Assembly (NCBI GenBank): GCA_004794655.1 | Contig: SMMW01000068.1 | Coordinates: 907,501-971,500, forward strand | Source: Marisa cornuarietis | Taxonomy: Eukaryota > Mollusca > Gastropoda > Architaenioglossa > Ampullariidae | Length of the DNA: 64,000 nucleotides | Direction: 5' to 3' | Part shown: one piece after another, positions 22,289-64,000 of the stretch | Layout: each line of letters starts with the position of its first letter | Numbering within the stretch: the first letter of the stretch is position 1 | Made by a program: the position numbers and the translations under genes | Notes under the pieces: generated by a model | The model's input: only the letters and a program-made list of their open reading frames with translations | What the model was told of the DNA's origin: nothing | The model's database searches: none

Positions 22289-25200
22289 GTATTTGTACAG
22301 AAATCACAGTATAACCGAATAAATCAGTGTGAGTGGATGCAGCAGCTGTCTAAAAATACTTGCAGAACTCACGGTGAGGTGTAGGATCATCCGATATTAT
22401 AGTCACTAGTCTGTAACATACAAACTAAAGGATGGCAGAGTCTAGTGGTTGAGAGCAAAATGTGCTTCGCCGCATCTATGGTAAGCATGTGGAAGAACTG
22501 GTTTCTCCTACTTCAGAAGACAAGAACTCTGCTGGTCCTGTAAGAAAATTATCTTTTATTTGTTTTTGGTTTTGGGTTATTTTTTGTGCTAAAAGCAGCT
22601 GAATATAGACCCCAACTCCCCCCCCCCCACTCCGTCCGGCTTTGCGCGCTTGACTGTCAGTGTGCGCTGGCGCGAGCATGCGGGTGTCTGTGATACATAT
22701 GTATTGATTTTATATTGATAAAATTATATATTGATTTTATATTATAATATAGATTGATGTATTGTTTCTAACTCAGTCGTCATGCTTTCATACCTGACAT
22801 AATAACTAGAGATACCCATTGCTGAAACAAACAGCCAGCATCCTTCAACTAATCAGCAGCTAACCATACCCAACAGAGAGGGAGACCACACCCCATATGA
22901 GCAGTGACCTCGCCTGCTCGCCCTGCGCCACCCTGGCAACTTTACCGCTGTTCTCGCTTAATTGCTCTCTGGCCACTTAGTAATGGTTGTCTTACATGAT
23001 CTTCTCTGACAGCTGTATACGAGGCCTTCTTCTTACTCAAGTATTCTCTGGCTGCGGACGGGTGGTCCAATTTACCCCGCGACTTTAAAGGGATTCTCAC
23101 CTCTAAATACAAACTTTTGGGATTCGTTTAAGTGTTGAAGGAAGACCCTAAAAATATCGGACATTTAAGCCACATCAGGCTTGTTCAAGTGTAATTCGTC
23201 GCTGAAGGCGAGGAATTTTGCTGGTTTTCGAAGTAACCTAATAATTTCCAAAAAAATAATGTTTGTAGCACAACTTATTACTTCTGTTAACTGTCTCAAA
23301 CAAAATGTAGCACCTTTGCTGTGATATATCCAGAGTTGCTGGCTTGGTGTAAAATACCAATTCCCTCCCCTACCCCCAAACCATACATGTCTACAATAAA
23401 AATATCAAATTGCTCACATTCAGTTTTTTCATGACTTTTTGAATCTTGCCATGTACATGGCTCTAGCTTTTTCGGCCCTAGGATGCTTGTATCCAGCTGA
23501 TAGTGCAACTAGCTGGCTTTTGCTTGAATTTGTTTGGCATTGAAACAGCTAGGGCAGGGGGACCAGTAGTAAAATTCATAAATAGCTGATGCATCAAAAT
23601 AATCAGAAAATTTATAAAAGAAGGAGTAAGTGATCTTCAAATGCATTAAAACCAACCAATTAATGAGCTAGTTTTCTGCCTTGAATTTGTAGAAATAGAA
23701 AATAAAATGGCTGCAGTTGTGCTTCATTATCTTGATGCTGTTTTAACTGCAAACATCTTGTCCTAAACTTTATTTAAGTTTACTCCTGCTTAATCATACA
23801 ATACAAAAATACAGTTTGCAATTTATAGTTGATATCACTGGATAAAGGATAATCTACCTTACCTTTGCTTTGCTTAAGAGGCTTCATATTTCCCAATATT
23901 CCACACTGGTGCACAACAGGTGTTATGTTTGTGCCAACTTCAATGTCTGTAAACTTTGAATCATAGTTGAAGTAGTAGGCATTTCAAGTTGACATGATTC
24001 ACTCAGTATATCGGAGAATATATTAGCTGTGATGTTACTAACACTGGCACTGGGACTACAGCTTGGTGATGCATCATGCTTGTCCATTGTGCTGCATGCA
24101 ATATTTGCAGGAGCTCGCTTTATGATATCAATGTCCTGCAATTCAAGTCTCAGTTAAATACAGTTTACTATGAATGGTAATACATAAAGCTGCAGATTCT
24201 AACACAAAAAACTGGTGGATTACATTAAACCAACTGAGGAAAAAGTTTTGCTATATTATACTTTAACAGATAACTAAAAAATTTCTATAATGATTAACAT
24301 TATTAAGGAGACTCTGCCTTTAGTAAATAAAATAATAAAATTTTTACATTTACCATGCATTCCATAAGTAATAACACATTCACATGCAATTCCAAAGATG
24401 AGTAATAAACTTTTGAGTTTGAGAAAACAACATGTAAATGCACATGATTACTGAAGTAATTTTAACTTTGTTCTGCTATATTTCTAATGGTCTGATCATA
24501 CATTATACAAATCTGCATGAACTCTGGTCTGATGAGATCAGTGTTGTAAAATTTAGGAGGTAGGTTACACTAAAAGATAATTCAATTTATTGTTATCGCT
24601 TGAAATAAAAAGTACTTATTGTTGCACATAGGGATAATTTTAGTTGCATTTACTGTACAATAACCATCTTTTTTACCTTAACAGCTCTAAATTTCTGATC
24701 TTTTTTTCTCTCACAGTCTCCGTGTTTGCTTGTCATGTGCTCGCAGCTGCCGATGGAGAATGCTTTGACAATCATCATCATTCCTTGTTACACCTCGCGG
24801 AGCATAGGGCCGCAACAATACCTCACCAGCGGACGGGACAGCACACCCCCCACCCCCTCAGTTAGGCCCAAGTGGGTCCGGCATCCTTTGCCTCGCTCTC
24901 TACTGATCTTCTCCAAGTCTGTTTTGGCCTCCCAACTCTCTTCCCCTGAGGGTTCCAGTCAAGTCCCTGGTTTGCGCAGGGTGTGTCCTATCCAGCCCCA
25001 CTTTGATGTCTTGACTAGTGTCAATCTGGTTAGTTTTTTCCTACAGACTTCTATTTGAGATCTTTTCAGGCCATCTTATTCCCAAAATACTTACACCAGA
25101 TTTATGGCCTGAAAATATACCACAACCAAACATAGCTCACATGCAACCCATGACTGTGTACACAGGGTAACCGCCTGGCCGTATTGTAAATAGCCTCTTA

Positions 25201-25593
25201 TTGTCCAAAGCAACGTCATCAGCCAGGGAAACCCCTCACAAATCTAAATCGAGGCTCCTGCGGCCTTTTCAGCTAGTGACCCAGAGGTTATTCATTTCAA
25301 TCGAAGTTTTCGGATAGACGCGCGTCGACAAAGGCGAAATAACAGCAGAAATCGTGAAACCTAGTGATATTGTTGTAATCAATGCGACTTTTGAGTCTGA
25401 GTATAGAAGTGAGAATCCCTTTAACTGTGGGCGATTTTTATGTCCCACCAAAATTTACCACAGGAGAGAGAGAGAGAGTGTGTGTGTGTGTGTGTGTGTG
25501 TGACTTGTTCTAACGAGAGCTTACGAAAACCCACGTCTCTTTCAGAAATGCCGACGACTTTTCATGGAACATCTTTCTTATGAGAGAGAGAGA

Positions 25594-29996: not shown

Positions 29997-30063
<67 letters not shown>

Positions 30064-31153: not shown

Positions 31154-31188
<35 letters not shown>

Positions 31189-37100: not shown

Positions 37101-39832
37101 AAAAATACTGCTGGATGCTACTTTAGAGCCATTTCACAGCGATGTGTTAAACAGTTTATACTTAAAATGCCGTTTGCAAAAATGTACTCTCCATGACCTA
37201 ATGTATATTACTCCTGAAGAATATTAAGAGAGTGCCCGCATCTGATCCAATGCAACATCTTTCGCAGAATTTGACTGAAGCGAATTCAGCTGGGAAGTGG
37301 AAGAGTCTGTGTGTGTTGTCTGCTCATTGAGACACTTTGGCTTGTCAAAGGACATTTAGGGAATATTTCATGCATTTATTGGAATAGCTTCACCTGAAAA
37401 AGGCAAGCCATTAACTAGGGTCTTTAAATTCATCGCATTTATAATAAGTAAATCATAACGAATATTGGTCTCAGGCGCACGACCATACGGCATGTCTGTG
37501 GATTCGCTGTCGAGGTTAATCTTTTACACCGACGCGGGTCTTCATCTCATTGGCATGGTGAGAATGTCCACCAACAGCTACTTAACGGTAATCGACTCTG
37601 ACATCGACATGCCTGGGGACATCGAGCTGGACAAACACAACGGGTAAAGATAACAGAACTAACCCTACAACATAGGCTTTGTGAGCCAGAATTTAAATAT
37701 AAAGTTGTTTCCCTTTACAATATGTATAAATCTGTTGTCATCATCAACTAGACGCCTCCTCGGCATGGCAGACTATTGATTCTGGCTATACACTGTAAAT
37801 GAATGTTGCAAAAGCTACTACATTCTAAGCCTGTTTAGCTTTTGGAATTGAGACAGGTGCTCACTTGGTTGAGCTGTCTTTAGTGTGTTGGATGAAACAA
37901 ACAGGGTGATGTACTGGACTGATGTGGGTGCCACGCCTAGAATAGAGCGAGCCAACTATGACGGCACTGAGCGGAGAATACTCGTCTCGGCATCCGCAAA
38001 TCTGGACTTGCCACATGCACTGGCACTTGATACCGTTGGTGAGGTGTCCTTTCCTTCCTTCTTTCTTTCTTTTCAATTTTTATTTTCATTCTTTTCTCTT
38101 TTCTCTTTTTTTATTTCCTTTGTTCTGTTAGTTTGCATCCGCATTTGTTTTCTCTGTGTGGGGCACATGTGCGTGTGTGCGTGTGTGTATGTTTAGGCTT
38201 CCTATCGTAAGTACGTATTTTTGAATTTTTGAAAATTCATGATACGATGATGGACTGTAAGCACACATTTGTATTTGTGTGTTGGGATGAGCGTCCATGT
38301 GATTATGATTTTTTTCGAGTGTTTGTGTGTATTTTTTCTGTGTGTGTATATGCTTGTGTTTGTTTATTTGTTTGTTGATGTATATGTGCGTGAGGGGGCT
38401 CGGTTGCGTTACTGGATCGTGTTTGCGCGTGCGTGCAGGTCAGAGACTGTACTGGGCAGATGGCGAGACCCAGCTGATAGGATGGACAGATCTGGAGGGT
38501 CGGAATGTTAAGGAGATTTTGAGAACGCCTTCGTCAAGATTTTTTGGCATGGACATCTACCTCAACACACTGTTTGTCACAGACAGAACAACAAAGTACA
38601 TCCATTCAAAATTACTTGACACTTCTTTAGGACAACCTAAAGCTTATCCTTGCACTATCCCAGCTAATTGGAGAGATGAGATGAAAATATATGTTAATTA
38701 GGCATATCGTGAGGTCACGGTTTTGACCTCTTTCTGTGAATGGTAGTTTGTAGTCTTATATCTCAAGAAGGCAAGAGGGATAGTCACCTACTTCTGCGGA
38801 AGTAGTATCTCGATCTGAGCTTGACCCAATTGTTAAAAAAAGACAATTAAAGCACACTGTCCCTTTTAAAACAATTGAATGTCATATTTTATGATGTACT
38901 AACATTCCTGAATATTGATTATGACCAGGTCCCAGGCTGAGGTTACATACATTCGTCGTATTAGCACTGATGGAAAACGACAAGAGCAAGTGATCACAGT
39001 TAAGGGGCGATTAAATAACATCCGCATCTATTCGGAAGACACAGAAGACAAAGGTCAGTGAGTGCTCCTTCGAGAGTAAGAGAAAGGTCAAAGGGCATAT
39101 CTTACTGAAAACAAAAAAACAGTAGCTGGCTTTCTTTTAAACACCAAAACATTGTAACTAAAAATAATTTATATAAACTCCAGCAGCCAACCCTGTAAAC
39201 ACATGCCACATGCAGAGAAAGAACATCGTGCCTGAGACGAGAGCTGAACCCAGGACAGCCAACCTTCGCTGTATTGGTGACAGGCGTTAACCGTTGCGTC
39301 ACCGGACCACCCAACTAGACGTCGGGCACTAAATTAAGAACAAACACTTTAAATAAATTTATTATCAAAATACTAATTTTTATAGCTAATTTTTATCAAC
39401 AAATGTATATAACAAATCTACTGATTTACTGAAAGGTTGTATACTGAAATGTTGTTATAGGATCCAATGGGTGTGGACGTAACAATGGCGGCTGTGACGA
39501 TATCTGCGTACCAGCCCCTGATAATAACAGCAAATGTTTATCATCAAAGAACGAATGTAGTAGGTATCTTACAAAAAGAAAAAAAAACATTTTCTAGAAA
39601 GAACCTTACACAAAATTTACTATATAAAAGGAGGAAAATCAATATAAAATTAATCTTCACAGAAAATGGAGACAATCAAAAGTAGTATTACAACAATAAC
39701 GAGGTAATGATGTTGAGTAATCACGAGGGTTGATTTTCTTATCTCCCTTTCAGAAACAGAACTGTAGCTGCCCATCTCGCTTCGCTCGTCGTTTTCTTGA
39801 AGATGATAGAAAAGAAAGAGGACTGTGACTGA
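22216..39832 (+). CDS. Secreted LRP-like protein: signal peptide + 2 x (YWTD beta-propeller, EGF-like)
   Basis: Predicted exons, all phase-consistent: 22216-22288 (ATG), 25862-26098, 26433-26607, 26885-27018, 30064-30223, 30425-30549, 30964-31066, 34120-34343, 37475-37643, 37905-38038, 38439-38595, 38929-39053, 39461-39563 and 39754-39832 (TGA), about 665 residues. Exon 1 is a signal peptide ([16 protein letters not shown]). Residues ~25-301 and ~336-605 are six-bladed YWTD propellers of LDLR/LRP type: [38 protein letters not shown] and LYVTDW in module 1, with matching motifs in module 2. Each is followed by an EGF-like piece ([27 protein letters not shown]). No membrane helix is seen, so it is probably secreted; the ligand is unknown. 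Weak points are the acceptor at 34120 (34104 also possible with donor 31062), the donor at 38595 and the short last exon. Confidence 0.82.
23085..25424. mobile_element. TTAA-flanked DNA transposon remnant in intron 1 of the LRP-like gene
   Basis: The left end is TTAA (23085-23088) then AGGGATTCTCACCTCTAAA. The right end, read on the minus strand, is TTAA (25421-25424) then AGGGATTCTCACTTCTATA. These are inverted repeats of about 18 bp with two mismatches, with TTAA as the apparent target duplication, giving a 2332-bp element. Koloboks and piggyBac-like elements use TTAA. Inside are weak minus-strand open frames (23296-23508, 23923-24141) without a recognised domain, so it is probably non-autonomous or decayed. 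The ends resemble, but are not identical to, those of the 5.47-kb unit at 53938. Confidence 0.65.
25462..25640. repeat. Compound (GA)n/(GT)n tract interrupted by a copied exon junction
   Basis: GA and GT runs lie on both sides (25462-25500 and 25579-25640) of a 77-base non-repetitive insert, 25501-25577. Confidence 0.9.
25501..25577 (+). pseudogene. Exact 77-bp copy of an NRF-6-like intron/exon junction
   Basis: It is identical to 13043-13119: 45 bases of intron, the acceptor CTCTTTCAG and the first 32 bases of the 13088 exon. Both places have a GT tract directly upstream. The piece lies inside intron 1 of the LRP-like gene and cannot encode anything alone, though it carries a working-looking 3' splice site. 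Confidence 0.9.
26820..26884 (+). repeat. Degenerate tandem repeats of an exon start
   Basis: Just upstream of the exon at 26885 there are several TGATGTAC(A/T)G-like units that resemble the first bases of the exon (GTGATGTACTGG). They look like short slippage copies of the splice junction and leave several AG dinucleotides near the true acceptor. Confidence 0.55.
28345..28411. repeat. (ATATATACAC)n repeat
   Basis: Imperfect 8-10-bp ATATACAC units in the intron. Confidence 0.85.
28960..29470 (+). mobile_element. RTE-like non-LTR retrotransposon fragment
   Basis: Conceptual reading gives [13 protein letters not shown] near 29045, [19 protein letters not shown] near 29160 (the F-ADD catalytic box of reverse transcriptase), [12 protein letters not shown] near 29260, and [19 protein letters not shown] then AFHTLRP near 29380-29450. 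The order and wording match the thumb and palm of RTE-clade reverse transcriptases. Stops and frame changes separate the blocks, so it is dead. It sits in the sense direction in an intron. Confidence 0.75.
30003..30061. repeat. (GT)n tract abutting a 3' splice site
   Basis: About 29 GT units lead directly into TAG/GAAAAAGACTG, the acceptor of the exon at 30064. There is no pyrimidine tract between. Confidence 0.95.
31154..31185. repeat. (CA)n microsatellite
   Basis: About 15 CA units in the intron between the two modules of the LRP-like gene. Confidence 0.9.
31515..31885. repeat. Minisatellite, 23-bp unit, about 16 copies
   Basis: The unit is AATAATCCAAAGTCACCACGT plus two bases (AT). Variants differ at CCA(C/T)G, CCAA(A/T)G and C(A/T)CC. 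Because 23 is not a multiple of 3, a false 62-residue minus-strand open frame of 23-residue repeats appears at 31724-31912. Confidence 0.9.
31886..32840. other. Intron sequence, repeat-like, unidentified
   Basis: It contains an AAC trinucleotide run (32167-32195) and a stretch with repeated phrases such as AGTCTG and AGGACTTG (32240-32480). The wording suggests an interspersed repeat family; I cannot name it. Confidence 0.4.
32841..33629. mobile_element. Fold-back (long inverted repeat) element
   Basis: The left arm (about 32841-32972) carries CCCTGAAT and then repeated ACTTAATCCCC phrases. The right arm (about 33529-33629), read in reverse complement, carries CCCTGAAT and the same phrases. 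The best-matching block is CGACACTTAATCCCC, then TAGACTTTTACTCCCTAGG, then CACTTAATCCCC. The middle (32973-33528) is non-coding. It resembles a MITE or fold-back element with internally repeated ends; the superfamily is unknown. Confidence 0.6.
34344..37474 (+). other. 3.1-kb intron of the LRP-like gene
   Basis: The middle is the non-LTR fragment at 35300-36792. The remainder is AT-rich with no other recognisable content. Confidence 0.7.
35300..36792 (+). mobile_element. 5'-truncated non-LTR retrotransposon, 3' part
   Basis: Broken reading frames give GLKQGE, then [18 protein letters not shown] with the reverse-transcriptase ADD box, [38 protein letters not shown] and [18 protein letters not shown]. 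The end is ACTGAAATAAAGAAA followed by about four and a half TTGTCA units (36766-36792), a typical microsatellite tail. It is the same family as the minus-strand element at 47445-50160 (VVFRNGG, VHLFALKRFL, MIYGETGRYP). It is dead: stops and frameshifts throughout. Confidence 0.8.
39178..39320 (-). repeat. tRNA-derived SINE-like repeat
   Basis: Read on the minus strand it starts GGTGGTCCGGTGACGCAACG, continues GTTAACGCCTG (A-box like) and later has GGTTCAGCTCT (B-box like), with a non-tRNA tail (GCATGTGTTTACAGGG). Box order and spacing fit a pol III promoter, but it does not fold as an intact tRNA. Degraded relatives lie at 20420-20520 and near 17105. It sits in an intron of the LRP-like gene, antisense to it. 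Confidence 0.65.
39754..39832 (+). CDS. Candidate last exon of the LRP-like gene
   Basis: After acceptor CCCTTTCAG the phase-2 join gives a 25-residue tail ([20 protein letters not shown]) ending at TGA 39830-39832. It carries no further EGF cysteines and no clear membrane anchor. In another frame the same exon reads NCSCPSRF, a tempting EGF ending, but no donor phase joins it. Confidence 0.45.
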
Positions 39833-43124: not shown

Positions 43125-44282
43125 AACTGAAACATGGTAAAATCAGAGTCCATAGTACTATCCATGAATTAAAAGTAGTAAACATTGTAATTACTGAACA
43201 CAGGTGAGTTAACATTATGACTGACAAGTAGTGAGTTGAAATGCAGTACCTGAAACAGCATTATATGAATTTTGGTGCTATTTTAGCAGCATAAGCCAAA
43301 TATCTTTTTACAGTTCCCATAAACTTTCCTTCTAAAGTTGTATACAAACTTATTTAGTTTTGGTTTTCTTGTGGTATGCATCCTTCCATCCTTCCATTGA
43401 CAGGACGAATTTTCATGAATTCACTGACTTTGTTTCACTTGAACACCATGAAATAAATTTATGTTTTTGTTTAAATATGTTTTGCTTGATTGTATACTGC
43501 CACTTGTATGCAAGTTTGTACATGATTGTGAGGAATTGAAGATGCATGCACATCTTAAGGACTCAGCCACTCTTTTCCAGCCATCCCAGATTTATCGAAA
43601 GGCCGGTCGAACAATACCTGCCTCAATAAATGCAGGTCCATTTCCTCTGAGAAACGGATGATTTTTGTAAAATAACAATTTGCAAATGCTAGTAGTGACC
43701 GGGGATAACCAGTGCAGCTTAATTTCAAAATTTCTCAGCATTTCATTCCTGAACCACTATAGTTACTAATGTAAACCGGGCTTCAATCGGTGAGCATGTA
43801 TGGTGGGGGAAACTTGCAGCCACGCCAGCACACAGGAAAAGAACGGGAAAAACAGCGTGATCCCTTTTCTCTTTTCTTTACTACAATGCGGGAAAACAAA
43901 GGAAATAGAATAAATGGGAAAATAGGAAAAATAGGAAAAACGTTGCCCTGAAAGCAAACAAAAACAAACTTGTAGCACATCATGATTAATAAAATCAAAC
44001 ATCAAATTTACACAGAATTTCCCAAATATATTATTAAAAATCTCAAACACCTAAATCATGCATGACAAAATCTTGCACATAAACTTCTTCCTTCCTCACT
44101 TCACGTGCAAGGGTATCTCACGCCATATCTCATTTCCTGTACTCAACACTACACAAAAAATGTGATTTGGGAATCTGCAACCATCCTACACATAAATAAA
44201 AAATCATACAAAAATACGACTGTGATCTCAACAATCTAAAAACAAGATTATTTCTCTACTAACCTGATTTAGGACAACGAAG
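43125..44282. other. No gene recognised
   Basis: AT-rich sequence with short open frames only. Confidence 0.5.
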
Positions 44283-44708
44283 ATCACTGCTATTTTGGGT
44301 CCAGCACATTACCCAGAGGTGTTTGCTCGTCTTGGCATGGAAGTGTCTTCAGGAGTTTTGTTGGTTGGGCCACCAGGTTGTGGTAAAACTCTGGTTGCAA
44401 AGGCTATTGCAAATGAGACTGGAATCAACTTTATTTCTGTGAAGGGCCCAGAACTCATGAATATGTATGTAGGTGAGAGCGAGAGAGCAGTCAGACAAGT
44501 TTTTGAACGAGCTAGAAACTCTGCACCATGTGTCATTTTCTTTGATGAGTTAGACTCTCTTTGTCCCCAGCGATCTGACCAAGAGAATCCGTCTAGTGCA
44601 AGAGTGGTGAACCAATTATTGACAGAGATGAATGGGCTTGAATCAAGGAAGCATGTGTACATTACGACACAAGCAAAATACTTGAGATCTGCCAACAAAC
44701 AGTGGTGA
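44283..44708 (+). pseudogene. Truncated NVL-type AAA ATPase fragment
   Basis: An uninterrupted frame encodes [18 protein letters not shown], Walker A ([18 protein letters not shown]), [36 protein letters not shown], Walker B ([15 protein letters not shown]) and [20 protein letters not shown]. This is the D2 AAA module of nuclear VCP-like protein (NVL), a ribosome-biogenesis ATPase. Homology stops after HVYI, where about 20 unrelated residues and TGA follow, so the sensor-1 Asn, arginine finger and the rest are missing. No exon breaks occur over more than 120 codons, unlike the short exons of other genes here. It is a retrocopy or captured fragment, probably recent because the frame is intact. 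Confidence 0.8.
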
Positions 44709-45728: not shown

Positions 45729-46890
45729 GGCCCCGTATGCATGTAAATCGAATAAGGACTCGCGCGAATAGCTGCTTTTCGCGAAAAGCTATTCGAGACT
45801 TATACGTGCATAGGGCCTATCGTGATTCCGTATGCACAAAGCTCTATTCGGTCTCAAATAGCTTTACGCGAGTAGTAGAGGGGAGAACCGTTGCTATTTT
45901 TAGAAGCAAGCGAAAACAAGATGTTTCGGTGACGGTAAAGGAAACTACTTCATATAATATAGCATCGTTTTTTCGTTTGTTTGTTTTTTTGAGCTGTCAT
46001 CGGCCAAACTCGCCACTATCGCCCAAAATAGGCAAGAGTGGTGGGCCCTGTCAGCTCCCGTGTCTAACAATGTGCTCCCCGAAAACACAGGTCAAGGCAG
46101 GGTCAGCAGACATTGGTTACAGTCAACTTACTGAACTGCTACAAAATAAGCGTGCGTGTAAAGCTAACTTCAGCCAGTCTGGAGTTACAATATTGCTGGA
46201 GGAAATCTCTCTCGAGCACCGATTTTTATTTGGGAGGTGTTTAAACTGTTCCTAGCATAGACAGACAAGTTTGTATCACGTTTGACATTCCGTAGGTGCG
46301 ATGTACGGTATGTACCTGTCTTTTTGTCAAGTCCGCACGAGCTTGGTTCGGCAATGAAATTTCATGTGGTGCTCGCCGAAACAAAGCGTCGGTGACTCTC
46401 ACCACAGTGCGGCTGACAGTTGACTGGCTTACTCCAATTAATTCGCCACACACATCCTGAAAACTTGATGTAGCAAAATATCGCAGAGTTACAAGGACGT
46501 GTAACAATGGTGGTAGGGCACCTTTGCAATTGGTGACAGCAATCTCGCATGCCACATCATCGGTCAGTGCCAAAATGTTTTCTCATGGAAAACAAAATGT
46601 GTGATATAATTCTACATCATCAAATACTTCAAACGGATGCGATCTGTCTTGAAACACCTGATTTCTTCGCATCAATCGGCGTTCTCGCCACTGAAAAACA
46701 ATGAGGGCCGCCATTTTTCTGCCTGAATAGCGAGTTATACAGCCCCGAGAGGTCGAATAACTTTATACGCGGTCCGCCAGGCCGGAAAGCCTTTCCGGGC
46801 TCCCATGCATACGGATTTTTCACTGCTATTCACCCTAATAGGCGCTATTCTTGAATAAGGCCCTTTTCCGGGCTACATGCATACGGGGCC
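45729..46890 (-). mobile_element. Harbinger-type DNA transposon remnant with perfect 17-bp TIRs
   Basis: GGCCCCGTATGCATGTA at 45729-45745 is mirrored exactly by TACATGCATACGGGGCC at 46874-46890. Subterminal GTATGCA and AATAGC/CGAATA phrases recur near both ends. The 1162-bp element contains only the first exon of a HARBI1-like nuclease on the minus strand. GATCAGG abuts the left end and lies three bases beyond the right end (46892-46898). That could be part of a target duplication or chance; the usual 3-bp Harbinger duplication is not evident. It is non-autonomous as it stands. Confidence 0.75.
46316..46714 (-). pseudogene. HARBI1-like transposase, first exon only, with an in-frame stop
   Basis: ATG at 46714 opens MAALIVFQWRERRLMRRNQV, then FEVFDDVELYHTFCFP, a TGA, and ENILALTDDVACEIA. 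It continues with LPPLLHVLVTLRYFATSSFQ, VCGELIGVSQSTVSRTV and HEISLP to a clean donor (CAG/GTACAT) after codon 133. This is the helix-turn-helix N-terminal part of PIF/Harbinger nucleases. The stop codon may be CGA decayed to TGA. No following exon with the DDE residues is present between here and the left inverted repeat, so transposase activity is not possible. Confidence 0.8.
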
Positions 46891-47444: not shown

Positions 47445-48961
47445 TCAACGACTGAAGTTTGTAACATACATTACATTGGATATATGTGGGAATTTTATTA
47501 ATTGTACACATATCGTTGGGATATTAATACTAACAGGGTATCTCCCAGTTTCTCCATATATCATAACATTAGGTGTGCGAGAACTGACCCTTAGAAAACG
47601 CTTTAGAGCAAATAAATGAACACTTTCAAAGTCCACCCCTAATCCCCATACCTCAGCCCCATATGTCAACATAGGTAATATTTGGCACCTTTTTTGGCAC
47701 GACATGCAACATCCTCAAGAGCATTAGAAAAGGATAACCGTGTTGAAAAAATAACTCCTAAGTATTTGTACATATTTACCACTTTTACCTTCTCCCCTCC
47801 TATGTCCCATTTCTCCCTCTTTGCTAGATAACCCCCATTGCGGAACACAACAATATTTGATTTCTCCATATTTATAACCAAGCTTAGCTGCTTGCCAGTA
47901 TTATATAGAATATCTAGTTGAGCTTGAAGGCCTTTTGGGGTATCTGAAGTAAGAACTACGTCATCAGCAAATAGCAGGATTAAAATATGTAGTAAGTCTG
48001 GGCTTAGCTGTATTCCATGTTTACCACGCTCAATGATATTCTTTGCTAACGTGTCAATAAAAAGGGCTACATGTCTCTCCCTGCTTGAATCCTCTAGGGC
48101 AGAAGAAGGAATCGGTAACATCGCAGCCTACCCTAACTTTTGCCTGAACAACATTATACATACTCTGCAAAGCATTTAGCATTTTACCTTTGACTCCCTT
48201 TCGATTCAAAACTTCCCACAATTTTTCGCGTACAATAGAATCAAATGCTTTTTTGAAATCTATAAATGCTACCATAGCTGAGAGCGTATATATGTAATCT
48301 ATTATACTGTACTTTTTCTAAAACCAGCTTGTACATCCTCTATAACCTGTTTTTCTTCAATCCATTTAGAAAGTGTTTGGTTTAATATATAACTGTACAA
48401 TTTACCAATTATATTTAACAATGAAATTCCTGTATAATTGTCAGGGTTGCTAGGATCTCCTTTCTTATAGAGGGTTTGAATGATGGCCTCAGTCCATTCC
48501 AAAAGAAACTGCCCAGTATTAAAGATTTTATTAAAGATTTTATTAAAGAATTTTACCAAGAATAAACTTGAGTCAGAAAGCACAGACTTGTAAAATTCCC
48601 CAATTAATCCATCAGTACCAGGTGGTTTACTGTTCTTTAAAGCACGCAAAGCTTGGATAACCTCTTCCTTAGTGATTTCAGCATCAAGAGACTCATCACA
48701 GGGGATGTCAGTATTCCTATCGTCTATTGTACTATTATCTGAGTTATCATGCTCAGTAGCACCAATGTCACCATTACTGAAGTCATTAAAGACCTGCTCA
48801 AAGTGTTCGTACCAACATTCCTTTGCTATACTGTTTTTCACTGAGTGATCTGATTTCAAAGACTTTACAGTGGCCCAAAATAATTTCGCATCGTTTTTAT
48901 AAGTGTGAAGGTTCTCTATTGTACTCTGTTTGTAGTACTGTTTCTTTTGCTTAATTAACAT
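47445..48961 (-). pseudogene. Reverse transcriptase of the non-LTR element, frameshifted
   Basis: Four overlapping or abutting frames together cover the fingers, the palm with LLFADD, and the thumb. The frame changes lie near 48300, 48100 and 47690. The catalytic ADD is present, but no single frame spans the domain, so no enzyme can be made. Confidence 0.85.
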
Positions 48962-49280
48962 TTTATATTCCCTTCTACTATCAAAATATTCTTTCCGTGT
49001 TGCTTCACAGTTGTTTTGTTTATACTACCGACTTCCTCTTTTCCTTACACTGAAGGTCAAACCAACGTTGATGTGCATAATCTGACGTATGCACTACTTT
49101 TTTTCATACATTGCCCAGCTATTTTCAGGCCTTGATTAAATTTAGAAAGAGCCACATCTATGTCAAAGTCAAGAGCATTTAAAGCGTCTTTAAAATATTC
49201 TTGAACAGCATCTGACTTGATACAATCCACGAATGCACTTGATCTTTCAGGTAACCACACAAATTTCTCTCTAAAACATG

Positions 49281-50159
49281 TCAGCCCGTCACAGCTCTTT
49301 TCTGCGGTCTAGTGTTAACTGTCAAGTACAACTCCACAGGCATGTGTTTCGATTCAATACGTGTTGCCACATGCAGAGTCCGACTCAGATTAACAAGCTG
49401 AGCAGAAATCAAGAAATAGTCAATGACACTTGATCCGTTCGGAGAAATATAAATAAAGTCTCCACTGGAGTCTCCTAAAGGCAGACCGTTCAAGATTAAT
49501 AAGTCAAATTCTTCACACACATGCAATAAGCATATGCCGAAGGTATTAACACACTCATCCTTAGACTCACGATTTTTCTCGGGAGACACAGGTTCATCTA
49601 CATCAAGATCCACACGATCAAAGGGCAGGCTACTACCACAGGGAATGCAAGTACCCGTCCTCGCATTGAAGTCTCCACATAGCATTAAGTGAACATCCGG
49701 AAATTTTTCTTGAATATCAAGCATACATTGTTCAATAATACTTACTCCATTTACAATCTCTGTTTCTTTATAGTACACTGAGTTTGCTGGCGGAAGGTAA
49801 AGACCAAATAGAATTACATCTTTTTGTGTTCCTAGGAGGTCTCTATGCAGACTGACTACAATAATATTATCATACTCAACGTGGACTTGCCTAACTAAAG
49901 AGCTTATTAAGCTTTTCTTTACCAACAGCGCAACACCACCAGAAACTCGAGCAGTCACTGAATCTGAAATTCTAACCCCAGGAGCAATAAAAATATCCTT
50001 TAATGGAAATAAATGCCATGGGAAATCTGAGGAAAATGTTTCAACTAAAACTGAAATATCGAAACGTTTAATATATGTTACGACATCACTTTCATATAAT
50101 CTTGTAAGCCCCTCAATGTTGTAGGTAAGAAAGCTTACATTACAACCAGTCCCAGCCAC
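49281..50159 (-). CDS. AP-endonuclease domain of the non-LTR element
   Basis: A 292-residue open frame with the endonuclease/exonuclease/phosphatase signature: the metal-site Asn in FLTYNIEGL, Glu in VETFS, LMLCGDFNARTG (the GDFNA box), GSSVIDYFLIS and a terminal SKHMPV that stands where SDH-P is usual. Such domains nick target DNA to prime reverse transcription. The frame is intact, unlike the reverse transcriptase behind it. The start is uncertain: the true polyprotein start may lie upstream. Confidence 0.85.
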   Translation of the reverse strand: MAGTGCNVSFLTYNIEGLTRLYESDVVTYIKRFDISVLVETFSSDFPWHLFPLKDIFIAPGVRISDSVTARVSGGVALLVKKSLISSLVRQVHVEYDNIIVVSLHRDLLGTQKDVILFGLYLPPANSVYYKETEIVNGVSIIEQCMLDIQEKFPDVHLMLCGDFNARTGTCIPCGSSLPFDRVDLDVDEPVSPEKNRESKDECVNTFGICLLHVCEEFDLLILNGLPLGDSSGDFIYISPNGSSVIDYFLISAQLVNLSRTLHVATRIESKHMPVELYLTVNTRPQKRAVTG

Positions 50160-50309
50160 ATCTTTGCCCTTTCCCTGAGCCGCACCTGCCCGTCGGCGAG
50201 TGTTCTTACGTGTCGTCGAACGTAGGGTGGGGCCAGACCTGCCCCTGTAGCGAATCCAAACCTCCAGGCCAATCTGTCCGTCAGCCGCACTTGTCTCATC
50301 TCTAGCGGG

Positions 50310-53933: not shown

Positions 53934-54132
53934 TTAAAGGTATTCTAAAGGCAAATTATCGGTGATAAGGCTGTGGGGACGGTCCAAAACGTTTGCAAAT
54001 TATATTTAATTACGATTGCAGCTCACTAAAACAATACAGGAGAAATAAATGATGCTTTCTTCACCTTATTACCATTTCTTAGCACTACCTCGGTTGCCGA
54101 TGTTTATAAAAATCGAAAATTTCCAGTGAAAT

Positions 54133-54319
54133 TTACTCGTTATATCCTTCCGCCGAGAAACCGCGATGTCTTCGCGAGACGGTTAGCAGACGATTCCTTT
54201 GTATGACGTAGTTCTGGGACGCGTAAGTGTCGGTCAGTACTAGGATTTGAACACAAGTGATCGGTGGTGACTCGTTAGTTGGACTGGTAATATCCAAATT
54301 TTTAATAATCAAGGTGGCT
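54133..54319. promoter_or_regulatory. Presumed 5' leader/promoter side of the P2X7-type gene, copy 1
   Basis: The 380 bases between the left inverted repeat and the ATG hold no coding exon on the + strand. A 64-codon minus-strand frame (54133-54327) is preserved in copy 2, but so is everything else, so this is not evidence of coding. No clear TATA box was identified. Confidence 0.25.
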
Positions 54320-56461
54320 ATGAGCAATGTCCAACCATATCAGTTTGAACCGATTGCATCAGCTTACACTGGGATCGACTGGACCTCATTGGAAAAAGAA
54401 GAAAATGTTCAATCGGCCGAAAGACAAAACAGGTAGGACTAAGCAAGTCACATTGTGTCTACGCGAGCAGAGAGTGAACGAATGCTTTAGATTCAAGTAC
54501 TTAAAAAAAAAACATAATGCACACTAAGTCCACTAACTACTTGCACTGGGCTTTGTTGTTGACGAATTTACATCGTAATGTGTTTAAAGAATGAAATTAC
54601 ATTTGACATGCTAATTATTTCTTATGCACACACACACCCCGCGGAATATTCACATTGTAAATGATAATAAAGTGTTCTTTAGTTACTTTAGGTTTTAAAG
54701 TGAACTTTTCAAAGCTTAGTTTCAAAAATCAATATTTCAACATCGTTTCAATATTTCAAACAGACAATATTTGCAGCCTTTTTAGGGGGGGGGGTATATT
54801 CTAAATAATGACTTACTGTATGTGTAGTAGATGTATAACAACGATGCAGAGAATATGGCAGTTGCGTTTGCTTTATGCTATTATGCCTGTGCTTTTTAAA
54901 TTTTTGTTTGCAATTTAATTGTGTGGGTACATGAATTTATTTATCAGAGTTTCAGACTGGTGCAGTTGTGAGCATTGTGAGGAGTGGCCACAACAAAAAG
55001 AAGAAAAGAAATGTTGCCATTTCTATTCAGAAATAAACAATTATTTAGAGGAGGTCCAGATGTGCATTACCAGTCATAAAGGCATGGCTGGGAATTGTCT
55101 ATCAAGGTAAAAACTCTTATTTCACATACTTAAATTTTTCCCATGTTTAATTTTTGTGCTGGTTACTTTAGGGATGCTAATTTTCCCCACTCCAATATTG
55201 TGTAATTACAAGCATGCAAGTTATTGTCTTTTCCCACTACTGAAAGTAGGTGCAAAACACTGCATAACACCCACACATTTAGATATACAAGCACTTACAA
55301 ACATTCAGACTGATGCACGTGCTTTTTTTACAACACACAAATTAATACACACACACAAGGTGGAGGAAGTCGGAGTACCTCAAGAAAGCCACCAATGGTT
55401 ATACCTTGAAAGACATTCAGAAAGATGAGTGTTGGAGCCGAGATCTGACTTCTGACTCCACAACACCTATTTCTTACAGTCTAAGTGAATGGCGCTTTAG
55501 CGACTTTGCAGGCAAACCACATGTAAATGCTTACAGACTTTTGAGAGAAATGCTCTGAATATGTAATGACTTTATAATTGATTTTTTTCAGGTTTGTTAT
55601 TGATTCCACCATAGTGCTAATAAAGCAGATTAATATAAAAAGATGGCGGGAAGACTATATGCACACAGAACCACACAAGTAAGGGATATGCCAGCATTTT
55701 TTATTGATAGGCACAGTTTAGTCTGTGCAATGTCAAATTAAAAGCATGAATGCAAGAAAAGCACTTCAAAGATAAATATTACACTAAATGTTGAGGCATA
55801 AAAAATTATGTATAGTAAAGCTTAAAAGTGAATTGTCAATAAAATATTCCTTAAACAGCATGAAAATTATCACATTTATCCAAACCCAGTTATGGAACAC
55901 ACTTTATATGAGATGTTAAAAATACTTGCTTGTATCTGACATGAATTGCAAAATAAAATCTTCCCTATACAGCATTCAATTTTTATATTTATTCAAACCC
56001 AGTTATGGAACACACTTCACATCATTTTGATGTCTAAAACAAGTGTATCTGGCATTTTTTTTTACAAGCATCATTTCTGGAACACTTGGAGCTGAATTTA
56101 TCTCAGTAGTTTTCATTCGTTATGGATTAATAGTAATGCATGGAAAACTTTTTTTTTCTTCCACAGAACACACAGACATGTGGCTGAATTTATCTCAGTA
56201 GTTTTCATTCGTTATGGATTAATAGTAATGCATGGAAAACTTTTTTTTTCTTCCACAGAACACACAGACATGTGGCTGAATTTATCTCAGTAGTTTTCAT
56301 TCGTTATGGATTAATAGTAATGCATGGAAAACTTTTTTTTCTTCCACAGAACACACAGACATGTGGCTTACTGCAACTTTGTGCGATGGATATGGCACAA
56401 GATAGGAAAGAAAAACAGAAAAGTCTTGCCTGCATGTGTTGTTGCAGCGACCAGAAAATAA
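54320..56461 (+). CDS. P2X7-type zinc-binding domain protein, copy 1
   Basis: Exons 54320-54432, 54948-55106, 55592-55678 and 56350-56461 join in phase into 156 residues. Features in order: PYQFEP near the start, as in the cytosolic 'ballast' of P2X7 and its free-standing relatives; WCSCEHCEEW and KKCCHF with the zinc-binding cysteines (residues ~40-62); GNCLSRFVIDSTIVLIKQIN; HRHVAYCNFVRWIWHKIGKK; and LPACVVAATRK. The family pattern 'R..AYR.F..W', then 'R..PACVV..IR', is clear. There are no ion-channel membrane segments. The frame meets TAA (56459-56461) where homologues continue; the next family-like residues (IISVRGVYWLK) lie in the +1 frame. The role is unknown. Confidence 0.8.
56089..56368 (+). 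repeat. Triplicated 3' splice site before exon 4, copy 1
   Basis: Three direct copies of a unit of about 91 bp run from GCTGAATTTATCTCAGTAG through a T run and CTTCCACAG to AACACACAGACATGTGGCT. Each carries a complete acceptor and the first 19 bases of exon 4. The acceptor exons would begin at 56167, 56259 and 56350; only the last continues into the full exon. Confidence 0.9.
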
Positions 56462-57158
56462 TTTCCGTCAGAGGAGTTTACTGGCTTAAAATATGCTTTA
56501 TAATATATAGGTGAGTGTTTCTACAAATACATTCATAAGTACATTTAGCTTGTTGTCGACTAATGTGGGTTTTTTTTTATCCCACTATTGAAGGTGGGCT
56601 CAAACACCCATGATACACCTGAGGTGCATAGCTCACATTTAGCAGGCATCCCATGCTCCTTATAATCATTCACAAACTCACTCTCACAACACACAAACAA
56701 ATATGCACACAGGATGAGGAAGCCAAAGAAGAAGTTGGTTCTTTATTATATTTTCAGGAATCATATGCTTTAGTAATCCTGTATTGAAGCATGTAGCACA
56801 GTTTTTGATGCTCTTTTCAGAAGTATTGGACTGTCACATTACAGTGTACATCTTGCAAGCACAGTAATCAAAAGAAGAAGAAAGTATTCTGTCATTTTCA
56901 GAAATAAAATCCAATGTCTAGTTTACATGTTGCTATAGTGTATATATATATTTTTTTAAATCCAGGGCCTATATTCCAGATGATCATGCTGACCTTTGCC
57001 GTAGGACCCACCATGGTCTTCATGGATATCCACAACATGGTTGCAGATGGAAGCTTACTTGTCTCATACTAGCTGTTCTTTGCCCAGTCCTTCTGGTGAT
57101 GATGATGAACATCACTACACATAATTCAATAGGCTTTTGGACCATAATGACAAGCTAA
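56462..57158 (+). pseudogene. Out-of-frame 3' part of the P2X7-type gene, copy 1
   Basis: After the stop, +1-frame sequence (IISVRGVYWLKICFIIYR) continues to a donor at 56510 (TAG/GTGAGT). A phase-matched exon follows at 56966-57158, ending in TAA, with AYIPDDHADLCRR and a hydrophobic LTCLILAVLCPVLLVMMM. The join is consistent in phase. Whether this exon is coding or 3' UTR is unclear. Confidence 0.45.
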
Positions 57159-59402
57159 AATTACCCTCAGGTCAACTAGACGCAATGATATTCTTAGAAA
57201 CCCCTGAAAAATAGCAGAAAAGAGAAGTGAAGAGGTGAAAAATCTGTTTCTGTTAAAATTTACCCTTTCCTACACTAAAATCCATATGTAATACTTGTAT
57301 TTATCCCTCTAAGGCTTAGAAGAATCATACATGATGTACAATGACCTCAATATGATGCGACACTACCAGAAGAAAAAATATAAAATATAATAGTTGATCG
57401 TTTTAATTTTGATGTCATGAAATTAAATTATAATTTAAAATGATATTTGTTATTAGTTTGAAAAGAAGTGTTAGGAATACCTATAGCCATGTTCTCTACA
57501 TTAAAATAGTACATAATCTTTTGTTCATGGTGTGGCTGCAACTGATAATGTGTATTTTTATGCTCAAGCGACAATTATTTATTGAGTGATTGATTATCCT
57601 CTTATCTTTCAGTTTCTGTAGCATGTACATTATTTAATTGATTGTTCTATAAACATTTAAAAACAGTTTCAACAACGTATCGACATTTCCATAATTTTAT
57701 AATTCTTTGCACTTCTGTGGATTACAGTAAACGTGCATCAAATGAACACTTTTGAGATGCATATGTATTTCTGTATTTATCAATTAACATTTAGATAATA
57801 AACACAATGCCTCATTACTTAAACATGATATAATACACAGGCTAAAGCAACTGCTTGAAGAAAATTAGTACCAGTTTTTCTACCTGTGCTCTTTGAGTGT
57901 TGAACTTTTCTAGTCTTTTCCTGTGTGTGCGGTGTCATCTGCCTTTTCTGTCTCACAGTCCAGTCCCCAACATAAGGTCACATCTGCTGGACATTTTCAT
58001 TTTATTATTAATAAAAAGCAGGTATATTGACTTTTAGAAAGCAATAACTTAATAAAATAATGAAAAACACGTTTATTTTAATCTACATATCAAGCATTGC
58101 ATTTATTTGTGGCTTTGAATATCTTTGTTAGGATTAAATAACCATCATTTACAAATTTTATTCTTCCTGAGTTTAGATATAAGAGGTAAACATCAAACAT
58201 AACTAGAAAGTGGCCGTTATCTTTCTGAATCAGTTTGTGAGGATCTTGAAGAAAACAAAGGTGAACAAACCTGGAAATCTGGGTCTGTTTGCACCCCTTC
58301 ATGCATGCACAATTTAGCAGTTTATTGTGACTGGTTGGTCATTGTCTGGAATAAACATTATTAATGAAAAATTCTGCTCTGAACTCAGCAATGAATACAC
58401 TCTTTAATGTTATCTCTGATATACTGCACACAAGAATTAATATAATTAGTGCATGCATGTGTTAACATGCTCATTATGTAAGAAGTATCCTTTCAACATT
58501 TTAGAGATTTCATGTTTAGAAACAGAAGCCATCCTTACAAAGACATAGATCAATAAAACAAGCTTTCGTTGTATAAAATGTGTAAATAATTTAAAATAAA
58601 ATGTAGCAAGTATCAGATGAACAATAGTAGGCCTATATTTTCTTTATACTTGCAGCTTGATGCATTATTTTCTCACAAGTTACTGTATATTTTTGTCGTT
58701 CACATGTTTGATATAGCTACAATCTAATACTTTTTATTATGTACATGCAGTCATTCACAGACTGTAATGTTGATCATGGTAGAATAAGAATCGCAGTTTA
58801 TTGTTTACAATTTTAGCTAGCATCAGGTGCATTCGTGACACTGACCTGTTTGGCGACTGAATATCATCTGTCAGATGCATCCCATTCTTTTTTTGACAAC
58901 TTCATAATGCTGAAAAAATGTAGAAACTTATCCCACAGAAACTGAGACACAAAGCGCAAGCCGCGCTGTTCGCTCGATCGTTCGTGTGCTCGTAAAGCTT
59001 TATACCAAATGTTTTGAGCACAAGGTGTCCGAGTCTCTAGCCTCACAAAGCTTTGTAGTTTCGTATCTGAGTCGTTTCATCCTTAATTTTATTCTCTTCT
59101 CAAGTTTCTGTCATTTGGAAACTTGTGAAAACTATTTTTGAGCTCCTTCCGCCCCTTTTTTTTCGGCAATCGGGTGGCAGCTGCATTCGTTTTGCTTGGT
59201 AAACAATCATAAGGTCACGTGACGGAGAACGAGACTTCGTTGAAGCAAGCGAAAGAGTCCGGTGTAATTTCTCTTATTAAACACAACACTCCACATAACC
59301 TTCAACTTTTTGCACATGAATAGACACGAAAATAGATGAGATTCATATTAATCATACTCTTTGTGAGAATCTAAACAGTTTTATTTTGCCTTGAGTATAC
59401 CT
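57159..59402. other. 3' part of the transposon unit, no recognised gene
   Basis: AT-rich sequence between the last P2X7-type exon and the right inverted repeat. A 70-codon minus-strand frame (58090-58302) recurs in copy 2 at 63560-63772. It shows no known domain. Confidence 0.5.
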
Positions 59403-59788
59403 TTAAAGGTATTCTAAAGGCAAATTATCGGTGATAAGGCTGTGGGGACGGTCCAAAACGTTTGCAAATTATATTTAATTACGATTGCAGCTCACTAAAA
59501 CAATACAGGAGAAATAAATGATGCTTTCTTCACCTTATTACCATTTCTTAGCACTACCTCGGTTGCCGATGTTTATAAAAATCGAAAATTTCCAGTGAAA
59601 TTTACTCGTTATATCCTTCCGCCGAGAAACCGCGATGTCTTCGCGAGACGGTTAGCAGACGATTCCTTTGTATGACGTAGTTCTGGGACGCGTAAGTGTC
59701 GGTCAGTACTAGGATTTGAACACAAGTGATCGGTGGTGACTCGTTAGTTGGACTGGTAATATCCAAATTTTTAATAATCAAGGTGGCT

Positions 59789-61931
59789 ATGAGCAATGTC
59801 CAACCATATCAGTTTGAACCAATTGCATCAGCTTACACTGGGATCGACTGGACCTCATTGGAAAAAGAAGAAAATGTTCAATCGGCCGAAAGACAAAACA
59901 GGTAGGACTAAGCAAGTCACATTGTGTCTACGCGAGCAGAGAGTGAACGAATGCTTTAGATTCAAGTACTTAAAAAAAAAACATAATGCACACTAAGTCC
60001 ACTAACTACTTGCACTGGGCTTTGTTGTTGACGAATTTACATCGTAATGTGTTTAAAGAATGAAATTACATTTGACATGCTAATTATTTCTTATGCACAC
60101 ACACACCCCGCGGAATATTCACATTGTAAATGATAATAAAGTGTTCTTTAGTTACTTTAGGTTTTAAAGTGAACTTTTCAAAGCTTAGTTTCAAAAATCA
60201 ATATTTCAACATCGTTTCAATATTTCAAACAGACAATATTTGCAGCCTTTTTAGGGGGGGGGGTATATTCTAAATAATGACTTACTGTATGTGTAGTAGA
60301 TGTATAACAACGATGCAGAGAATATGGCAGTTGCGTTTGCTTTATGCTATTATGCCTGTGCTTTTTAAATTTATGTTTGCAATTTAATTGTGTGGGTACA
60401 TGAATTTATTTATCAGAGTTTCAGACTGGTGCAGTTGTGAGCATTGTGAGGAGTGGCCACAACAAAAAGAAGAAAAGAAATGTTGCCATTTCTATTCAGA
60501 AATAAACAATTATTTAGAGGAGGTCCAGATGTGCATTACCAGTCATAAAGGCATGGCTGGAAATTGTCTATCAAGGTAAAAACTCTTATTTCACATACTT
60601 AAATTTTTCCCATGTTTAATTTTTGTGCTGGTTACTTTAGGGATGCTAATTTTCCCCACTCCAATATTGTGTAATTACAAGCATGCAAGTTATTGTCTTT
60701 TCCCACTACTGAAAGTAGGTGCAAAACACTGCATAACACCCACACATTTAGATATACAAGCACTTACAAACATTCAGACTGATGCACGTGCTTTTTTTAC
60801 AACACACAAATTAATACACACACACAAGGTGGAGGAAGTCGGAGTACCTCAAGAAAGCCACCAATGGTTATACCTTGAAAGACATTCAGAAAGATGAGTG
60901 TTGGAGCCGAGATCTGACTTCTGACTCCACAACACCTATTTCTTACAGTCTAAGTGAATGGCGCTTTAGCGACTTTGCAGGCAAACCACATGTAAATGCT
61001 TACAGACTTTTGAGAGAAATGCTCTGAATATGTAATGACTTTATAATTGATTTTTTTCAGGTTTGTTATTGATTCCACCATAGTGCTAATAAAGCAGATT
61101 AATATAAAAAGATGGCGGGAAGACTATATGCACACAGAACCACACAAGTAAGGGATATGCCAGCATTTTTTATTGATAGGCACAGTTTAGTCTGTGCAAT
61201 GTCAAATTAAAAGCATGAATGCAAGAAAAGCACTTCAAAGATAAATATTACACTAAATGTTGAGGCATAAAAAATTATGTATAGTAAAAGCTTAAAAGTG
61301 AATTGTCAATAAAATATTCCTTAAACAGCATGAAAATTATCACATTTATCCAAACCCAGTTATGGAACACACTTTATATGAGATGTTAAAAATACTTGCT
61401 TGTATCTGACATGAATTGCAAAATAAAATCTTCCCTATACAGCATTCAATTTTTATATTTATTCAAACCCAGTTATGGAACACACTTCACATCATTTTGA
61501 TGTCTAAAACAAGTGTATCTGGCATTTTTTTTTTACAAGCATCATTTCTGGAACACTTGGAGCTGAATTTATCTCAGTAGTTTTCATTCGTTATGGATTA
61601 ATAGTAATGCATGGAAAACTTTTTTTTTCTTCCACAGAACACACAGACATGTGGCTGAATTTATCTCAGTAGTTTTCATTCGTTATGGATTAATAGTAAT
61701 GCATGGAAAACTTTTTTTTCTTCCACAGAACACACAGACATGTGGCTGAATTTATCTCAGTAGTTTTCATTCGTTATGGATTAATAGTAATGCATGGAAA
61801 ACTTTTTTTTCTTCCACAGAACACACAGACATGTGGCTTACTGCAACTTTGTGCGATGGATATGGCACAAGATAGGAAAGAAAAACAGAAAAGTCTTGCC
61901 TGCATGTGTTGTTGCAGCGACCAGAAAATAA
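59789..61931 (+). CDS. P2X7-type zinc-binding domain protein, copy 2
   Basis: Exons 59789-59901, 60417-60575, 61061-61147 and 61820-61931 have the same phases and the same 156-residue product as copy 1. The two coding substitutions I found (CCG/CCA in QFEP, GGG/GGA before NCLSR) are both synonymous. The in-frame TAA at 61929-61931 is at the identical place, so the lesion predates the duplication, or it is the normal end of a short protein. The zinc-site cysteines are intact. Confidence 0.8.
61559..61838 (+). repeat. Triplicated 3' splice site before exon 4, copy 2
   Basis: The same three 91-bp units as in copy 1. Acceptors end at 61637, 61728 and 61819. T-run lengths differ slightly between the two copies. 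Confidence 0.9.
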
Positions 61932-62628
61932 TTTCCGTCAGAGGAGTTTACTGGCTTAAAATATGCTTTATAATATATAGGTGAGTGTTTCTACAAATAC
62001 ATTCATAAGTACATTTAGCTTGTTGTCGACTAATGTGGGTTTTTTTTTATCCCACTATTGAAGGTGGGCTCAAACACCCATGATACACCTGAGGTGCATA
62101 GCTCACATTTAGCAGGCATCCCATGCTCCTTATAATCATTCACAAACTCACTCTCACAACACACAAACAAATATGCACACAGGATGAGGAAGCCAAAGAA
62201 GAAGTTGGTTCTTTATTATATTTTCAGGAATCATATGCTTTAGTAATCCTGTATTGAAGCATGTAGCACAGTTTTTGATGCTCTTTTCAGAAGTATTGGA
62301 CTGTCACATTACAGTGTACATCTTGCAAGCACAGTAATCAAAAGAAGAAGAAAGTATTCTGTCATTTTCAGAAATAAAATCCAATGTCTAGTTTACATGT
62401 TGCTATAGTGTATATATATATTTTTTTAAATCCAGGGCCTATATTCCAGATGATCATGCTGACCTTTGCCGTAGGACCCACCATGGTCTTCATGGATATC
62501 CACAACATGGTTGCAGATGGAAGCTTACTTGTCTCATACTAGCTGTTCTTTGCCCAGTCCTTCTGGTGATGATGATGAACATCACTACACATAATTCAAT
62601 AGGCTTTTGGACCATAATGACAAGCTAA
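61932..62628 (+). pseudogene. Out-of-frame 3' part of the P2X7-type gene, copy 2
   Basis: It matches the 3' part of copy 1: +1-frame IISVRGVYWLK to a donor at 61980, then an exon at 62436-62628 ending in TAA. Confidence 0.45.
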
Positions 62629-64000
62629 AATTACCCTCAGGTCAACTAGACGCAATGATATTCTTAGAAACCCCTGAAAAATAGCAGAAAAGAGAAGTGA
62701 AGAGGTGAAAAATCTGTTTCTGTTAAAATTTACCCTTTCCTACACTAAAATCCATATGTAATACTTGTATTTATCCCTCTAAGGCTTAGAAGAATCATAC
62801 ATGATGTACAATGACCTCAATATGATGCGACACTACCAGAAGAAAAAATATAAAATATAATAGTTGATCGTTTTAATTTTGATGTCATGAAATTAAATTA
62901 TAATTTAAAATGATATTTGTTATTAGTTTGAAAAGAAGTGTTAGGAATACCTATAGCCATGTTCTCTACATTAAAATAGTACATAATCTTTTGTTCATGG
63001 TGTGGCTGCAACTGATAATGTGTATTTTTATGCTCAAGCGACAATTATTTATTGAGTGATTGATTATCCTCTTATCTTTCAGTTTCTGTAGCATGTACAT
63101 TATTTAATTGATTGTTCTATAAACATTTAAAAACAGTTTCAACAACGTATCGACATTTCCATAATTTTATAATTCTTTGCACTTCTGTGGATTACAGTAA
63201 ACGTGCATCAAATGAACACTTTTGAGATGCATATGTATTTCTGTATTTATCAATTAACATTTAGATAATAAACACAATGCCTCATTACTTAAACATGATA
63301 TAATACACAGGCTAAAGCAACTGCTTGAAGAAAATTAGTACCAGTTTTTCTACCTGTGCTCTTTGAGTGTTGAACTTTTCTAGTCTTTTCCTGTGTGTGC
63401 GGTGTCATCTGCCTTTTCTGTCTCACAGTCCAGTCCCCAACATAAGGTCACATCTGCTGGACATTTTCATTTTATTATTAATAAAAAGCAGGTATATTGA
63501 CTTTTAGAAAGCAATAACTTAATAAAATAATGAAAAACACGTTTATTTTAATCTACATATCAAGCATTGCATTTATTTGTGGCTTTGAATATCTTTGTTA
63601 GGATTAAATAACCATCATTTACAAATTTTATTCTTCCTGAGTTTAGATATAAGAGGTAAACATCAAACATAACTAGAAAGTGGCCGTTATCTTTCTGAAT
63701 CAGTTTGTGAGGATCTTGAAGAAAACAAAGGTGAACAAACCTGGAAATCTGGGTCTGTTTGCACCCCTTCATGCATGCACAATTTAGCAGTTTATTGTGA
63801 CTGGTTGGTCATTGTCTGGAATAAACATTAATGAAAAATTCTGCTCTGAACTCAGCAATGAATACACTCTTTAATGTTATCTCTGATATACTGCACACAA
63901 GAATTAATATAATTAGTGCATGCATGTGTTAACATGCTCATTATGTAAGAAGTATCCTTTCAACATTTTAGAGATTTCATGTTTAGAAACAGAAGCCATC

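Follow-up and report, generated by a model that had tools for sequence, protein, structure and literature searches.

The 64,000-nucleotide stretch of the Marisa cornuarietis genome analyzed here (the window; contig SMMW01000068.1 of assembly GCA_004794655.1, positions 907,501 to 971,500 of the forward strand) holds, toward its right-hand edge, a tandem pair of an element that lies between TTAA sites and carries a four-exon gene. The predicted product is homologous to KolX, a protein of certain Kolobok DNA transposons, and to the zinc-binding ballast domain of the P2X7 receptor. Coordinates are collected in Table 1. A preliminary description of this DNA had spoken of two head-to-tail copies; the second copy does start at the TTAA that closes the first, but only one of the two is complete, since copy 2 runs out of the window with its 3' end and outer TTAA (about 84% of it is visible if the two lengths are equal).

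Table 1. Features of the tandem pair and of a second TTAA-bounded element; positions are those of the window.
Feature	Position	Strand	Details and basis
Second TTAA element, KolX-less, ends AGGGATTCTCACCTCTAA / AGGGATTCTCACTTCTAT	23089..25420	+	pair scan, end comparison, Pfam
TTAA target site, left	53934..53937		sequence, pair scan
Element copy 1, ends 5'-AG...CT-3'	53938..59402	+	5,465 bp; sequence, pattern search, pair scan
Left terminal inverted repeat AGGTATTCTAAAGGCAAA	53938..53955	+	pattern search
KolX exon 1, copy 1 (PYQFEP motif)	54320..54432	+	predicted
KolX exon 2, copy 1 (6 of 7 conserved cysteines)	54948..55106	+	predicted
KolX exon 3, copy 1	55592..55678	+	predicted
92-bp tandem triplication across exon 4 3' splice site, copy 1	56091..56368	+	
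KolX exon 4, copy 1; premature TAA 56459-56461, 14 codons before conserved end	56350..56503	+	predicted
Right terminal inverted repeat AGGTATACTCAAGGCAAA	59385..59402	-	pattern search, pair scan
Single TTAA common to both copies	59403..59406		sequence, pair scan
Element copy 2, runs past window end	59407..64000	+	alignment to copy 1
KolX exon 1, copy 2	59789..59901	+	predicted
KolX exon 2, copy 2	60417..60575	+	predicted
KolX exon 3, copy 2	61061..61147	+	predicted
91-bp tandem triplication across exon 4 3' splice site, copy 2	61562..61838	+	
KolX exon 4, copy 2; premature TAA 61929-61931	61820..61973	+	predicted

Copy 1, with a G+C content of 34.7%, ends in terminal inverted repeats that are identical at 16 of 18 positions; the likeness soon fades further inward, and the left end recurs at 59407-59424 (+), where copy 2 starts. 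TTAA, the target of Kolobok, adjoins both ends, its duplication on insertion being presumed from this single locus. A degenerate pattern of the ends, allowing up to three mismatches, matches the window three times against a chance mean of 0.38, and all three matches are the element's own ends. We also scanned all 454 TTAA sites of the window for facing inverted ends agreeing at 14 or more of 18 positions and spaced 60-12,000 bp apart. The scan returned seven pairs, and none in the eight first-order Markov sequences that served as control: the KolX element, a second element at 23089-25420, four pairs that all belong to a single foldback-like sequence around 33 kb, and an AT-rich pair spanning both copies that exists only because they are in tandem. 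The earlier view of a TTAA-targeting DNA transposon with imperfect 18-bp inverted ends is borne out by these observations.

The exon borders of the gene are predicted from homology, GT/AG signals and frame-compatible joins. The product would comprise 156 residues, ending at the premature stop in exon 4, beyond which 13 further in-frame codons resemble the conserved end of its relatives. This stop stands at the same place in both copies: all seven conserved cysteines (C43, C45, C48, C60, C61, C77 and C149, from alignments) lie upstream of it, and the strongly conserved FPS...GF tail is lost. From the alignment, we take these cysteines to be the ones that hold zinc. In the ballast domain, seven cysteines coordinate two zinc ions (PMC9587614). 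When the exons are joined and the premature stop is read as X, the product matches Pfam PF20478 (P2RX7_C) with E = 1.3e-10 and a score of 42 bits, the cut-off being 23.5, and a profile built from it and four relatives retrieves P2X7 from the PDB at 1.5e-11 with the seven cysteines in register; the gene of P2X7 type with intact cysteines that had been noticed from the sequence is thus confirmed. The second lesion is the triplication, which is present in both copies and multiplies the last 3' splice site together with the start of exon 4. Searching the window by tblastn with 56 related proteins matched only the eight exons, apart from a weak stretch at 9130-9312 (E = 0.009) that we take as chance.

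Just past the KolX frame, at ~56505-56516, stands a strong-looking splice donor, ATATAG/GTGAGT, which suggests that more exons could follow in the transcript. Two internal repeats were also seen: stretches of 35 bp at 55330-55364 and 56686-56720 that are 77% alike, with a wider likeness around them that is visible by eye and unlisted by BLAST, and a direct repeat of ~77 bp in intron 3 (55829-55904 and 55942-56017, 83% alike).

The closest protein, P0001 of Pomacea canaliculata, is 77% identical to the predicted product across its whole length. An AlphaFold model of P0001, not of the window protein itself, has a mean predicted local distance difference test score of 74.9 and a predicted template modeling (TM) score of 0.66. 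Compared with the PDB, it places P2X7 structures at ranks 1-14 of 33, with TM-scores by query of 0.47-0.54, and below E = 4.5 only P2X7 structures are found. A structure alignment (A3) took in 32 of 56 relatives from a profile search.

Profile searches yielded 56 and 49 proteins, many in common; those named come from molluscs, cnidarians, a starfish, ticks, a nemertean and fish, with zebrafish nanor b at 32%. Of the pattern-matching stretches in viral contigs (5 and 13) and in bacterial and archaeal genomes (8), none was confirmed as a relative. Our tree has 23 rows, the window protein and 22 of the 76 proteins retrieved, picked as named and nearly full-length; the 54 omitted are unnamed, partial or further copies, and the 'cnid' label of row P0024 is a guess. 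The window protein is paired with Pomacea (99/98), and three Littorina proteins join this pair next (100/100). The position would suggest a caenogastropod host close to Pomacea, though a mobile gene is an unsure guide to its host. The limpet Patella stands with Pinctada and Pecten; at 92/88, this grouping falls short of what the tool regards as good support. The relatives in Littorina are several divergent proteins within one snail, in three clusters. Molluscs thus seem to have several KolX lineages, which may not track the order of their hosts, as would be expected if the genes belong to transposons. A contrary finding is that of Rump et al. (PMC7016195), who reported linkage of such genes to two conserved markers across invertebrates and no large multigenic families.

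A six-frame Pfam scan of copy 1 (E up to 1, stops read as X) detected no transposase, THAP or nuclease. It returned P2RX7_C from exon 4 alone (E = 0.0004, below the cut-off) and two sub-threshold DUF7815 matches of 16 residues each, which we take as chance; the Kolobok transposase, a DDD/E enzyme usually accompanied by THAP and H2CH motifs, was not recognizable in any frame. No stop-to-stop frame of the element exceeds 108 residues, the length of the longest. At ~56908-57158 the sequence looks exon-like by eye, and its two frames match no Pfam family. Without a recognizable transposase the element cannot pass for autonomous, and it is very probably unable to move itself. Non-autonomous families, for example T2-MITE of Xenopus, are classed by target and ends (PMC6004289).

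We read the unit as a non-autonomous transposon of the Kolobok superfamily, of the KolX-bearing type known as Kol0, that has lost its transposase, retains a shortened KolX and was recently doubled in tandem; we give this reading a probability of roughly 0.86. Kolobok elements are recognized by TTAA duplications and 5'-RR...YY-3' ends, and elements of the Kol0 lineage have a second protein, KolX, that is similar to the P2X7 ballast and has seven cysteines (Kojima and Bao 2022, PMC9587614). The same paper assigns the ballast-like proteins found in diverse animals to Kolobok families. The termini of the window element, 5'-AG...CT-3', are of the Kolobok form, and its predicted KolX, with ballast fold and seven cysteines, points to Kol0, albeit with a reading frame shortened in both copies. 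Compared with the published ends of Xenopus Kolobok elements (PMC6004289), its ends give 100 matches summed over six subfamilies (p = 0.0015 by column shuffle, in which columns are permuted behind a fixed AG).

Two described groups are close to it. Kol0 elements of the Kolobok-1_XT type share TTAA, the 5'-RR...YY-3' ends and a KolX with ballast fold and seven cysteines, but the window element has no recognizable transposase and a shortened KolX; its host is a snail, whereas the hosts named in PMC9587614, in a list introduced by 'including' and not exhaustive, are vertebrates, annelids, cnidarians and sponges. The full-length XKol elements of Xenopus tropicalis share TTAA and 16-bp ends that start with AG and follow a similar pattern, but they measure 6.8-13.9 kb and have a prospective transposase coding sequence, and Table 5 of PMC6004289, which lists them, is silent on KolX. 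The pairing of KolX with Kolobok was thus already in print in 2022 (PMC9587614), so that elements of this kind, of which the preliminary description knew no example, had been described; the present one looks like an additional, defective member of that transposon group.

Several points weigh against this placement. Made without a Kolobok transposase, it rests on the ends, the target and KolX, and a decayed transposase could go undetected by Pfam. The resemblance to the best single Xenopus subfamily is not significant (p = 0.063), and the p-values for end-likeness come from several tests, uncorrected for their number. Finally, a PDB search with the predicted protein alone returned nothing at 1e-3.

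The history of the unit can be sketched as follows. It would have inserted by cut-and-paste at TTAA, its AGG...CCT ends being recognized by a Kolobok transposase encoded elsewhere. The transposase gene would have been lost and the accessory Kol0 gene KolX kept, whose product would adopt the zinc-binding ballast fold that vertebrate P2X7 also has at its C-terminus; a premature stop shortens this gene in both copies. KolX itself may act in transposition.

A bolder proposal, which we consider unlikely, is that KolX is kept on transposase-less elements, or was kept on them until recently, since it aids their spread: the zinc-binding ballast protein would contribute in cis or trans to the transposition complex, or act as a repressor when shortened. 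Free-standing ballast genes in animals would then originate from such KolX-only elements, and the tandem would be a freshly amplified example. We noticed no published description of KolX-only elements among the matches listed.

How the pair arose is a separate matter. Over the 4,594 visible bases, copy 2 differs from copy 1 by three substitutions and four indels, the latter in single-base runs or a short repeat; the two coding differences, both in KolX, are synonymous and too few to show selection. Most simply, the premature stop and the triplication are older than the pairing of the copies, and sharing them fits either one local parent or a young family in which both lesions are common. A TTAA is found about every 141 bp in the window, which makes it unlikely that a second insertion hit precisely this one independently. 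We favor a local event, for example reinsertion beside a sister copy. An excised or replicated copy may have inserted into the end TTAA of its own sister, or a circle, excised and closed over a single TTAA, may have recombined with the resident copy; either route would leave one TTAA between two complete units, and these are probably the likeliest.

It is also conceivable, but rather improbable, that the assembly has written a single insertion, or two copies located elsewhere, twice. This would concern the pair and not the element; the few differences, the position of the indels in one-base runs or a short repeat, and the lesions common to both copies are what such an error would look like. 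A false duplicate would normally include flanking host DNA, however, whereas the junction consists of exactly one TTAA between complete ends, and substitutions are present, two of them synonymous in KolX.

Tandem multimers also occur in KolobokP, another group of the superfamily found in molluscs. KolobokP differs in its terminal direct repeats, 450 or 660 bp long, in its His-Me nuclease and in the lack of a strong target preference, and its multimers share a repeat (PMC9587614), whereas the window copies share TTAA only. Comparing copy 1 with the window revealed no terminal direct repeats of 450 or 660 bp, and the six-frame Pfam scan no His-Me finger nuclease, which some families may lack (PMC9587614).

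The preliminary description had regarded the P2X7-type gene as cargo. In such a reading, a host ballast-domain gene would have been captured by a TTAA transposon or would lie by chance between its ends. An element with no recognizable transposase would suit that idea, as would the marker linkage and the lack of large families reported by Rump et al. (PMC7016195). Yet Kol0 elements, which have the same target and type of ends, carry KolX as their standard second protein (PMC9587614), the domain found here matches it, and the nearest proteins include the multiple divergent copies of Littorina. Because a Kol0 Kolobok already encodes KolX, capture from the host is unnecessary, and we consider it decidedly improbable.

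The ends of piggyBac elements are 5'-CC, and those of the window element are 5'-AGG. Placing the element among KolX-carrying members of the piggyBac superfamily is very improbable: TTAA is a target common to both superfamilies and a few piggyBac families have a KolX-like C-terminal part, but the 5'-AG...CT-3' ends have the Kolobok form, which PMC9587614 sets apart from that of piggyBac, and the piggyBac versions described there are without most of the seven cysteines, all of which are present here.

A Kolobok-like element without KolX lies elsewhere in the window, at 23089-25420. It is 2,332 bp long, its ends agree at 16 of 18 positions, TTAA stands at 23085-23088 and 25421-25424, and neither KolX (by tblastn) nor a Pfam domain was found in it. 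Its ends resemble those of the Xenopus Kolobok elements with p = 0.0002 summed and 0.0095 for the best subfamily, and they are identical to those of the KolX element at 10 of 16 positions at each end (p = 0.0025). Non-autonomous Kolobok-like elements thus appear to be present in the window in two kinds, one with KolX and one without.

Inside this second element, at ~24699-25060, are frames that appear, by eye, like those of long interspersed nuclear elements. A foldback-like structure with repeated units of the TTAATCCCC type, inverted at both ends, occupies ~32869-33611; by eye, the nine bases CGCTGACAG adjoin both of its ends, possibly as a target duplication. On the minus strand, a short frame at 46241-46582 weakly matches the helix-turn-helix of DDE transposases (PF13613, E 3e-4, below the cut-off) and looks HARBI1-like by eye, and pieces of a retrotransposon without long terminal repeats extend over 47666-50309, with an endonuclease domain (PF03372) at 49281-50309 and frames that look reverse-transcriptase-like by eye, of which that at 48302-49024 has no Pfam family. 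Host exons on the plus strand at 26712-38701 contain repeats of YWTD type by eye, with PF00058 at 34079-34474. A further host exon, of an AAA ATPase (PF00004), lies at 44268-44708 (+) and presumably resembles NVL.

The tandem pair shows KolX physically enclosed by TTAA-bounded ends in a snail, in a unit that was duplicated recently. The ballast domain of vertebrate P2X7 and zebrafish nanor contain a homologous zinc-binding domain but are host proteins, and both are proposed to derive from KolX: a P2X4-like gene would have fused with KolX to give vertebrate P2X7, and nanor would likely be a domesticated KolX (PMC9587614). The element agrees with the origin of the P2X7 ballast domain from a transposon protein, as proposed in PMC9587614. 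Invertebrate genes annotated as 'P2X purinoceptor 7-like', that of Pomacea among them, may accordingly be transposon genes and not receptors.

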